Part shown: piece after piece, positions 44,154 to 47,520 of the stretch
How the letters are laid out: every line of letters begins with the position of its first letter
How positions within the stretch are numbered: the first letter of the stretch is position 1
Origin: Bacteroidota bacterium
Lineage (GTDB): Bacteria > Bacteroidota > Ignavibacteria > UBA10030 > UBA6906
Length of the DNA stretch: 64,000 nt
NCBI GenBank assembly: GCA_030835135.1
Contig: JAUQWO010000011.1
Span: 1 to 64,000, forward strand
Reading direction: 5' to 3'
Notes under the pieces: model-generated
Databases searched by the model: none
Seen by the model: the letters and a program-made list of their open reading frames with translations, nothing else
Told to the model about the DNA's origin: nothing
Translations under genes and position numbers: made by a program

Positions 44154-45707
44154 CTATTCGAAGTGCTTCAGTGTTCCCCACGCTTCCGCCAGGGGCACCC
44201 GCAGCCCCCTGCACAGATACACCGGCACGTCGTTCTCATAGGGCATGCTCCAGGGTGAGGATGCCGTGCCCGCGAGCTCGACACTCGCAAACACCTTCTC
44301 CTTCTCCTTGCGTGCTCCTCCGAGAACGATCACAACCTCGCCGGTATAACTCCGTGGCCCCCAGACCCAGTAGCTGTTGTGGCTGCCGATCGCGCGGGGT
44401 AATCCGTAGTGCCTGCCGAACAGATCGATCGCGGCGGACCGTCCGTAGTTATCGCTGAAGATCGCGCAGCGGGCTTTTTCTTCCGGCGTCAGACGGTTGT
44501 ACACCGCGGCAACGGCCGCGGCTTTTTCCGGCCATCCGAACATGTCGGCATAGAATTGCGGCAGGGCGCCGAGCTCCTTCTTCTCCGAAGTGCCGGGTGC
44601 AATGCCGAAGGCATGGGCATAGGTCACGAAGGTGTGCACGGGCAGTACGGGGATCGCCAGGGGGACAAGCGCGGCGGCGGTCGCCGCGAGCACGATCCCG
44701 TACGCCGGTACGACGAAACGACGGAACCACCCCGCGGTCCAGGCTTCCATGCACACACCACCCGCAGCAAAGAGGAGGGGAAATCCAGCGGCAAGATATT
44801 CGGCCTTGCTGTGGCCATTGATCACCAGGAGCGCCGTCACGAAGAGGAATGCTGTGCCGAGGAACCGGAAGCGTGCAAGCGGCCGCGCGAAGAACAGTCC
44901 CGCGAGTCCGGCACCCCACAACGGCAGCGCGAACGGGTTATGGAGCAGCAGCTGGTCCGCGAGGAAGCGCAGGGGTGTCAGGTCGGAGTACTTGCCGTTC
45001 GTCGCATTCCGTATGAATTCGAGATGCGCATAATTGTGGAGGACATTCCAGACGACGAACGGTGCGAAGAGCACCACTGCGACCGCGGCCCCGCGCAGGG
45101 CGTGTTTGGTCCAGAGCAGAGACCGGTATGGGGAGAACAGAAGCCCGGCCACGATCCCTGCGGCCAGCCAGAGTACCCCGATCTTGTTCAGTGCTCCGAG
45201 ACCGACGACGATACCGAGCGGAAGGAACATCCGGGGGTCTTTGGCCTGGACCAGTCCCACTGCCAGCAGCACCGCCGCGGTCCAGAACAGAACGTCCAGA
45301 GAGTTCATGGAGTAGATCCCGGAGAATGCCACCAGGACGGGTGAAAAGCCGGCCCCGATGGCGGCCAGCGATTGCGCCATACGGCCGCCCCCGAAGGTTG
45401 CGGCGATGCGACCGGTCAGCACGACCGTTGCCGCGCCGGCAAGGGCAGGGACGAGACGCACGGCGAACGCGGAGTCGCCGAAGACCGACCGGACCATGGC
45501 CAGGACGAAGATCGAAAGCGGGGGGTGGTCCACATAGCCGAGATCCAGGTGATCCGCACAGGCGAGATAGTACAGCTCGTCGCGGAAGTACCCGTAGCCG
45601 CCGAACGTGTTGGTCCAGAGATGAAGGCCGAGACGCACCAGGGCGATCATCATCACGATGGCCGGCCCGGATGTGAGCGTTTCGCGGAAAGTCTGTGGCT
45701 TGTGCAT
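44154..45707 (-). CDS. Family-39-type membrane glycosyltransferase (ArnT/PMT-like)
   Basis: This 517-residue polytopic protein has about ten or more hydrophobic helices. The first periplasmic loop carries the catalytic acidic motif in FRDELYYLACADHLDLGYVDHPPL, typical of GT39/GT83 enzymes that use polyprenyl-phosphate sugars to modify lipids or proteins. The C-terminal 130 residues form a soluble domain. The frame extends upstream, but 45707 is preferred: a gagg site lies just before it and the sequence starts directly before the first hydrophobic region. A second ATG is at 45710. It faces the ABC operon convergently and follows trpB2 on the same strand with a strong hairpin between. Confidence 0.85.
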   Translation of the reverse strand: MHKPQTFRETLTSGPAIVMMIALVRLGLHLWTNTFGGYGYFRDELYYLACADHLDLGYVDHPPLSIFVLAMVRSVFGDSAFAVRLVPALAGAATVVLTGRIAATFGGGRMAQSLAAIGAGFSPVLVAFSGIYSMNSLDVLFWTAAVLLAVGLVQAKDPRMFLPLGIVVGLGALNKIGVLWLAAGIVAGLLFSPYRSLLWTKHALRGAAVAVVLFAPFVVWNVLHNYAHLEFIRNATNGKYSDLTPLRFLADQLLLHNPFALPLWGAGLAGLFFARPLARFRFLGTAFLFVTALLVINGHSKAEYLAAGFPLLFAAGGVCMEAWTAGWFRRFVVPAYGIVLAATAAALVPLAIPVLPVHTFVTYAHAFGIAPGTSEKKELGALPQFYADMFGWPEKAAAVAAVYNRLTPEEKARCAIFSDNYGRSAAIDLFGRHYGLPRAIGSHNSYWVWGPRSYTGEVVIVLGGARKEKEKVFASVELAGTASSPWSMPYENDVPVYLCRGLRVPLAEAWGTLKHFE

Positions 45708-45819
45708 CATATCCTCAGCGACGTGGTGCACGGTAGAAGCCCCCCCAGCGGTGGGTGGTGATGCCGGAGGGGGAGTGTGTGAGAACTCGTCAGGGACAGG
45801 AGTCGGTCCGGGAATCCTC

Positions 45820-45852
45820 GGCGGGTCCGTCCTGCATGAGGACGGACCCGCC
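45820..45852 (-). terminator. Long perfect hairpin downstream of trpB2
   Basis: A 14-bp perfect stem, GGCGGGTCCGTCCT (45820-45833) with AGGACGGACCCGCC (45839-45852), closes a 5-nt loop. It begins about 40 nt beyond the trpB2 stop. There is no T tract, so termination is not certain; mRNA 3'-end protection is an alternative. Confidence 0.55.
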
Positions 45853-45894
45853 ATCTCATTCTATACGGAGGCACTCGGGCCGATGTTGCGCGGC

Positions 45895-47262
45895 TTACCT
45901 TGCCGGGACGGGGAGCGACCTGATCTGGTTCAGCGCCGCTTTGACCTCGTCGATATGCAGCTCATGGTTCTCGAGCTTTCCGGCCAGATAGGAATCGTAC
46001 GCCGTCATGTCGAAGTGGCCATGGCCGCTCAGATTGAAGAGAATGATCTTCTTTGTCCCTTCCTTCTTTGCCTGCAGCGCCTCATCGATCGCACCGCGGA
46101 TGGCGTGCGAGGATTCCGGCGCTGGAATGATGCCTTCCGAACGGGCGAACATCACCGCCGCTTCGAACACCTCATTCTGCATGTAGGCACGCGCTTCGAT
46201 GAGGTCACTAAGGAGCATCCGGCTGACGATCGGTGACATACCGTGGTAGCGCAACCCGCCGGCATGGATCGATTCGGGGATGAACGTGTGCCCCAGCGTG
46301 TGCATCGGGAGGAGGGGCGTCATCATGGCCACGTCGCCGAAATCGTACCGGAACTCGCCCTTCGTGAGCGTCGGGCAGGATGCCGGTTCAATAGCGATGG
46401 ACCGCACCTTCTTCCCTTTGATCCGTTCCCGCACGAAGGGGATCGCGATGCCGCCGAAATTCGACCCCCCGCCCGCGCACCCGATGACAATGTCCGGGAA
46501 GCGGTCGATCTTCTCGAGCTGCTTCATCGCCTCGAGTCCGATCACGGTCTGGTGTAGGAGCACATGGTTCAACACGCTGCCGAGCGAGTAGTTGGTATCT
46601 TCGCGCTGGGCGGCGTCTTCCACTGCCTCGCTGATCGCCAGGCCGAGACTCCCCGGGTGGTTCGGATTGGCGGCGAGCGCATCGCGCCCGGCCTTGGTGT
46701 CCTGGCTCGGGCTCGCCACGACGTCGGCGCCCCAGGTCCGGATCATGGACCGGCGGTACGGCTTCTGGTCGTAACTGACGCGCACCATGTACACCTTGCA
46801 TTCGAGGCCGAAGATCTGGCACGCCAGACTCAGCGAGCTTCCCCACTGTCCGGCTCCCGTTTCGGTCGCAAGGCGTTTGATGCCGGCCTTCTTATTATAG
46901 TAGGCCTGGGGAATGGCCGTATTGGGTTTATGGCTTCCCGCCGGGCTCATTCCTTCATACTTGAAGTAGATCTCCGCCGGCGTGTCGAGCTGCTTTTCGA
47001 GGTTCACCGCGCGGATGACCGGGGTCGGGCGGAACATCTTGTACACATCCTGCACCTCTTCCGGGATCTCGATGAACCGTTCGCCGCTCATTTCCTGCTT
47101 GATGAGTTCCATCGGGAAGATCGCGGACAGGTCATCCGGGCCGATCGGCTTGCCCGTGCCGGGGTGGAGGGGAGGGGCCAGGGGAGTCGGGAGATCGGGG
47201 AGAATGTTGTAATACGCTGTCGGCATCTCCTTCTCGTCAAGGTAGATCTTGCGTGGTGCCAT
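45895..47262 (-). CDS. trpB: Stand-alone tryptophan synthase beta chain, TrpB2 type
   Basis: This 455-residue PLP enzyme makes tryptophan from indole and serine. The N-terminal extension ([21 protein letters not shown]), [16 protein letters not shown] and the length identify the TrpB2 branch rather than the TrpA-partnered TrpB1. The PLP lysine is K112 in [15 protein letters not shown], and the phosphate loop is [11 protein letters not shown]. The ATG at 47262 follows ggaga and gives the usual N-terminus. No trpA or other trp gene is adjacent, so it probably salvages indole or supplements a trp operon elsewhere. The upstream leader holds a trp attenuator, so expression should fall when charged tRNA-Trp is plentiful. 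Confidence 0.95.
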
Positions 47263-47301
47263 GGATGTGTCTCCGGGTTGTATGGTTGATGGAAAGGTCA
47301 C

Positions 47302-47333
47302 AAAAAAAACCGTGGGTGGAGGCACCCACGGTT
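47302..47333 (-). terminator. trp attenuator terminator upstream of trpB2
   Basis: Read on the minus strand, AACCGTGGGTG and CACCCACGGTT form an 11-bp perfect stem with a CCTC loop, followed by six more T residues. It lies 40 nt upstream of the trpB2 start codon, so termination here prevents trpB2 expression. Confidence 0.92.
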
Positions 47334-47352
47334 GTCGTCATTCCGGATCGCG

Positions 47353-47378
47353 TGGGAACACTCCGCGTGGTGTTCCCA
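47353..47378 (-). promoter_or_regulatory. Upstream leader hairpin (pause/antiterminator segment) of the trp attenuator
   Basis: TGGGAACAC and GTGTTCCCA (9 bp) form a hairpin between the leader peptide and the terminator. The six bases CCCACG at and just beyond its 3' arm are perfectly complementary to CGTGGG in the terminator 5' arm, so an alternative antiterminator pairing is possible. Confidence 0.65.
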
Positions 47379-47402
47379 GCTCAGACCATCACATGTGCGT
47401 CG

Positions 47403-47450
47403 TCAGGCAGGCAGGGACACCGAAGGGCGGCGCCACCACCAATACTGCAT
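47403..47450 (-). CDS. trpL: trp leader peptide with three consecutive Trp codons
   Basis: On the minus strand the short frame encodes MQYWWWRRPSVSLPA and stops (15 residues). Three successive UGG codons occupy codons 4-6. It lies about 42 nt downstream of the strong promoter at 47492-47520 and upstream of an intrinsic terminator, the arrangement of classical trp attenuation. Ribosome stalling at the Trp codons when charged tRNA-Trp is scarce would favour read-through into trpB2. The Trp-codon RNA (GUGGUG) can itself pair with CACCAC in the next hairpin, giving a possible 1:2 segment. No clear Shine-Dalgarno is visible. Confidence 0.85.
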   Translation of the reverse strand: MQYWWWRRPSVSLPA

Positions 47451-47491
47451 CGTCGACAGGTATGGTTGGAGAGTATTCATTCGCGTGATAG

Positions 47492-47520
47492 AGTATACTA
47501 AAGGAGCCCGAGTTTGTCAA
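47492..47520 (-). promoter_or_regulatory. Sigma-70-type promoter of the trpB2 transcript
   Basis: On the minus strand a consensus -35 TTGACA (47520-47515) is followed after 17 nt by TATACT (47497-47492). Transcription should begin near 47485, about 35 nt before the leader peptide start codon. Confidence 0.88.

Follow-up and report, generated by a model that had tools for sequence, protein, structure and literature searches.

The stand-alone tryptophan synthase gene trpB2 in the window, the 64,000-nt stretch of Ignavibacteria-type DNA that was analyzed, is preceded on the minus strand by an element that is very probably a Trp leader-peptide attenuator, as judged from its sequence features and their recurrence in relatives. 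The best overall explanation, and a likely one, is a ribosome-mediated transcription attenuator that would permit transcription of trpB2 under a shortage of charged tRNA-Trp. It is reasonably probable that the element operates in the window as a six-strand relay, in which the hairpins 1:2, 3:4, and 5:6 are set against the alternative pairings 2:3 and 4:5.

All of the parts lie on the minus strand, and sequence and pattern scan place them in the order promoter, leader open reading frame (ORF), Trp-Trp-Trp run, 9-bp hairpin, 11-bp hairpin with a T8 tract, and trpB2. A first-pass annotation, made from the letters alone, had named a consensus TTGACA-17-TATACT promoter, and both approaches bear this out: the −35 hexamer TTGACA (47515..47520) and the −10 hexamer TATACT (47492..47497), with a 17-nt spacer, match 11 of 12 consensus bases. 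This is the sole promoter-like site detected by the scan between 45000 and 49000, and none was found by the same scan downstream of the terminator nearest the gene. That terminator, T2, was also correctly recognized; it spans 47333-47302 and consists of an 11-bp stem, AACCGTGGGTG/CACCCACGGTT, followed by eight T's (47302..47309), and its presence as an intrinsic terminator upstream of trpB2 is read from the sequence. The gene after it is trpB2, as had been proposed (45895..47262, start at 47262, 455 aa), with a probable Shine-Dalgarno sequence, GGAG, at 47271..47274. Its full-length product exceeds the curated cut-offs of the stand-alone tryptophan synthase beta families TIGR01415 and PRK12391, at 651.6 bits (cut-off 518.85) and 742.3 bits, respectively. 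A glycosyltransferase-like membrane protein is encoded on the same strand at 44154-45854, 40 nt after trpB2, and may be cotranscribed with it.

The Trp run consists of three TGG codons (47441-47433), which are the regulatory codons and also the core of strand 1. The 15-codon leader drawn around them in the first-pass annotation, with the run at codons 4-6, needs to be extended. The start is most probably ATG 47480 and not the internal ATG 47450, because the position of the former relative to the Trp run and the −10 hexamer is kept in relatives and that of the latter is not. The resulting ORF (47403..47480, stop codon 47403-47405) encodes MNTLQPYLSTMQYWWWRRPSVSLPA, 25 codons with the Trp run at 14-16. 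A comparable promoter is found in 16 of the 16 leaders compared, and in every one the distance from the −10 hexamer to the first in-frame ATG is 6-17 nt. In the window it is 11 nt, so this ORF probably has little or no untranslated leader before it. Taken by itself, TGGTGGTGG is weak evidence and is not unusual in the window, where it occurs five times against 0.8 expected. Chance does not explain the ordered set, since the combination of promoter, WWWR ORF, and terminator is seen again ahead of orthologous trpB2 genes. The fold of the leader RNA has a z-score of −2.4.

Alignment of trpB2 upstream regions from the order, a check that the first-pass annotation had suggested, reveals conserved Trp codons and a conserved terminator hairpin. 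The regions share a promoter, a short WWWR ORF (a W-rich run in its place in L009 and L043), and then a hairpin like AAGGTGGGAAC..GTTCCCACCTTTTTT. A covariance model built from 16 leaders (R1) was run against 98 genomes of the order and has matches in 25, at trpB2 in 22 of them and at DAHP synthase in 3. Among the copies linked to trpB2, 20 lie within a few hundred bases upstream of the gene and 2 are on contigs that end there. Extending the R1 search to the class added one weak match (L169), which has no WWW run. A second model, R2, was built from only the nine members of family f6 and recovers leaders from two other families (L007 at 3.3e-10, L010 at 2.3e-9, L014 at 5.8e-7, and L012 at 2.3e-6). 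The window's own copy is not recovered by R2, which scores it at only 10.3 bits (E about 0.5), so that within its clade it has diverged the most. Its membership depends on its position, on the TrpB2 tree, and on two congeners, L010 and L012. In that tree the leader-bearing genes of this type form one clade, which also holds L008 and L042, unlabeled because their contigs end. The leader is absent from several further TrpB2 clades in the order. The relatives are named as Ignavibacteriae/Ignavibacteriales and Bacteroidetes MAGs, in keeping with the earlier proposal of an Ignavibacteria-type genome with a leader at stand-alone trpB2. The series of promoter, WWWR ORF, and hairpins at trpB2 is thus, on comparative sequence grounds, very probably a real and conserved Trp attenuator. 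No report of leader-peptide attenuation in Ignavibacteria was found among open-licence papers.

How the RNA strands are wired differs from the classical ribosome-stalling scheme that had first been assumed, although Trp-codon attenuation of trpB2 itself is conserved in relatives. In the assumed scheme, a simple four-strand attenuator, a stalled ribosome would mask the upstream arm of the 9-bp hairpin, whose 3' flank, CCCACG, would pair with the 5' arm of the terminator. The hairpin is present, with TGGGAACAC (strand 3, 47378-47370) pairing with GTGTTCCCA (47361-47353). Its 5' arm, however, starts 55 nt past the Trp codons and is out of reach of a ribosome stalled there, and a reading as a masked 1:2 hairpin is not supported. 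The segment that the ribosome would control is instead strand 2 (CGGTGTCCCTGCC, 47410..47422), which lies within the leader ORF just 5' of the stop codon. Strand 2 pairs either with strand 1, as in the minimum free energy fold of the window leader, or with strand 3 as an antiterminator. In family f6, three pairs of the 2:3 helix have two-sided changes (4 cells in total), a result matched by 1 of 500 shuffles and with slid controls at 0; the signal is weaker in the f1/f5 set, and an A.C mismatch is found in nearly all members. This covariation is not a by-product of the neighboring terminator stem, because strand 3 bases outside that stem participate.

The counterpart of the 9-bp hairpin is followed by a T-run in all 15 other aligned leaders, and in relatives the 3:4 hairpin can accordingly be read as a terminator, T1. 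In the window, and only there, the T-tract after strand 4 (GGAGTGTTCCCACG, 47351..47364) has been lost, and CCCACGCGATCC stands in its place. Since no T-tract follows strand 4, the window is predicted to terminate at T2 alone. The four-strand scheme can point to the CCCACG:CGTGGG match, which is a perfect 6 bp in the window and covaries in relatives, but it is very unlikely in light of the unreachable 5' arm, the covarying pairing of that arm with a strand inside the ORF, and the terminator role of the same hairpin elsewhere.

The complementarity between CCCACG (47356-47351) and CGTGGG in the next stem is better placed in a second stage, where covariation assigns it to the pairing of strand 4 with strand 5 (AACCGTGGGTG, then CCTCC; 47323..47333). 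A segment like CGUGGGAACCUCC is kept as strand 5 downstream of T1 in all members. Over 19 leaders, 86.7% of the 4:5 cells are paired, and two-sided changes number 11, where shuffled data give 2.9 +/- 1.5 (0 of 500) and slid controls reach at most 4. The 4:5 duplexes are stronger with their own partners than with permuted ones. Relatedness is only partly controlled, but the result is the same in 13 representatives. The pairing is weak in L046, L038, and L044. Sequence and folds thus give the window a six-strand pattern, with hairpins 1:2, 3:4, and 5:6, a T-tract only after 5:6, and the alternatives 2:3 and 4:5. Strand 5 would pair either with strand 4 or with strand 6 (CACCCACGGTT, 47308..47318), the 3' arm of T2. 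A good second terminator of this kind is found in the window, two congeners, L007, L049, and the DAHP synthase leader L166. Many relatives have no T2 following, and 4:5 must therefore serve another role in them.

Fold models of the window agree with two states. With the ribosome held at the Trp run, 2:3 forms with a probability of 0.79-0.86 and 4:5 then reaches 0.99-1.0; with the ribosome at the stop codon, 3:4 is at 0.99. In full-length folds the 5:6 terminator wins in every modeled state. Regulation by the relay must therefore be kinetic. In the models, 5:6 becomes favored after 5 nt of strand 6 are exposed in the released state and after 8-9 nt in the stalled state, a delay of 3-4 nt. When no pairs are locked, 4:5 is also transiently predicted in the released state.

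From these parts we infer stalling, termination, read-through, and a response to Trp. When Trp is plentiful, the ribosome would pass the Trp run, reach the stop codon, and cover strand 2; 3:4 and 5:6 could then form, and RNA polymerase would terminate at T2 (47302). When charged tRNA-Trp is scarce, the ribosome would wait at the Trp run and 2:3 would form. Strand 4, freed in this way, would pair with strand 5, delaying the 5:6 terminator and allowing trpB2 to be transcribed. A decaying attenuator, with the ancestral 3:4 terminator stripped of its T-tract and 5:6 cutting transcription constitutively without regard to Trp, would account for a T-tract missing only in the window, for the success of 5:6 at equilibrium in all states, and for the window's position as the most diverged member by R2. 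This reading is nevertheless improbable, as the window retains its leader ORF, Trp run, promoter, and strand 2 as well as the complementarity of strand 5, its core 4:5 match exceeds that of its congeners by one base pair, and the stalled state still delays 5:6 in the models.

The description of this trpB2 as an "orphan" overstates the case. A single contig of the genome carries trpB1, trpA, DAHP synthase, and trpE, and in front of trpE lie a WWW leader of its own (MKSAHAYRTNLSSWWWRTMMIPRPAGG), a promoter, and a terminator (L200, C39). A scan of 30 other trpE loci from the order showed W-rich leaders at 10, some of them mixing Trp and Tyr codons (WYWFWYRWY). Drawing on the trpE leader in the window's own genome and on these 10 loci, Trp-codon attenuation looks ordinary in this lineage, with trpB2 as a second target.

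The same RNA chassis is found with Tyr codons before DAHP synthase in three genomes (L164, 1511-1637, plus strand; L165, 1480-1599, minus strand; L166, 1481-1600, minus strand), where the leader peptides read MSMFKRYYLYYYPWARDSALSLR, MSMFKRYYFYYFTRARDCALSLR, or MNRPGRYYYYFYFTRARDRALSPG. R2, which was built without the Tyr leaders, detects them at 1e-10 to 4e-9. Among 30 DAHP synthase loci scanned in the order, a Tyr leader is present only at these three closely related genes; for 7 of the loci the motif used gave no placement. The exchange bears on whether Trp or tRNA-Trp is read directly by a different sensor, i.e., a T-box, a protein-bound attenuator, or a riboswitch. T-box leaders are indeed found upstream of trpB2 in other phyla, at several loci of Chloroflexi or Firmicutes type (L068, L070, L095, L103, L115, L123, and L131). 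A search of the window against Rfam, however, returned no family at the gathering score, Trp_leader included, and none at a loose threshold, and the T-box covariance model (RF00230) had no match there. The conserved feature is the WWW ORF, and its codons become Tyr before DAHP synthase, a change to be expected of a mechanism that reads codons; a direct sensor is highly improbable.

Leader-peptide attenuation remains the preferred reading, and its second stage may vary among relatives. In family f6, strand 5 (around ACCUCC) is complementary to the trpB2 Shine-Dalgarno sequence in L004, L006, L009, L038, L043, L044, and L046. Alignment A2 holds nine f6 members lacking a clear T2. When 3:4 is locked in their folds, the Shine-Dalgarno sequence pairs with strand 5 in 8 of the 9 (0.84-1.0), and in some members it opens once strand 4 is freed; the pairing effect is clear against shuffles in 5 of the 9. 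Covariation between strand 5 and the Shine-Dalgarno sequence was sought in f6 and none was found, and in folds of the window the Shine-Dalgarno sequence is not closed, unlike in most f6 members. A translational second stage in f6 is thus possible, and is offered as a lead only. An anti-Shine-Dalgarno role for the conserved GAACCUCC of strand 5 was set aside as a secondary idea; its conservation is better explained by 4:5, because the same bases pair with the GGAG of strand 4. A more tentative proposal is a modular relay, with strands 2 to 5 as one chassis and the codon run setting the input (Trp for trpB2, Tyr for DAHP synthase). The second stage would be a second terminator (the window, its congeners, L007, L049, and L166) or, in most f6 members, sequestration of the trpB2 Shine-Dalgarno sequence by strand 5. 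If so, stray read-through under plentiful Trp would also be silenced in most f6 members.

The closest architectural parallel is the his operon attenuator of E. coli, with stem-loops AB, CD, and EF and the alternative DE (PMC10989985). As is proposed for the window element, it has six segments, three hairpins in the terminating state, middle segments that swap partners, and a last hairpin that acts as the terminator. The window element differs in reading Trp rather than His, in its Ignavibacteria-type lineage, and in a second hairpin that is a terminator in relatives. E. coli trpL shares the tandem Trp codons in a short ORF and the pairing of strand 2 with strand 3, and in the relatives of the window strand 3 is likewise the 5' arm of a terminator. 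In contrast to trpL, the window element controls trpB2 alone, its ORF begins a few nucleotides after the expected transcription start, and its 3:4 hairpin has no T-tract, which would leave the decision to the 4:5/5:6 stage. Attenuators have been predicted at trpB2A of Corynebacterium diphtheriae (PMC1262725) and at trpRBA of Chlamydia (PMC3937554), where a predicted Trp leader peptide and attenuator also stand before synthase genes and not trpE. Those genes are not established as being of the TIGR01415 type, no relay is described for them, and they belong to other phyla. The T-box leaders (RF00230) at Chloroflexi- and Firmicutes-type trpB2 act on the same type of gene and sense tRNA charging, but they sense the tRNA directly, with no leader peptide.

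These observations add a stand-alone trpB2 from an Ignavibacteria-type lineage to the genes probably under leader-peptide attenuation. The elements form a natural series with one terminator, two in tandem, or only the second, which would show a route from a four-strand attenuator to a six-strand relay. That Trp and Tyr codons occur on one chassis suggests a switch that is kept while its input can be exchanged. The arrangement also suggests production of a spare beta subunit under tryptophan shortage, together with a trpE that has a Trp leader of its own, and by family TrpB2 is a candidate for indole salvage. Farther afield, W-rich short ORFs were also seen upstream of trpB2 in L136, L067, and L105 (listed as Latescibacterota, Neomarinimicrobiota, and Deltaproteobacteria MAGs, respectively), and L136 has a strong terminator as well.
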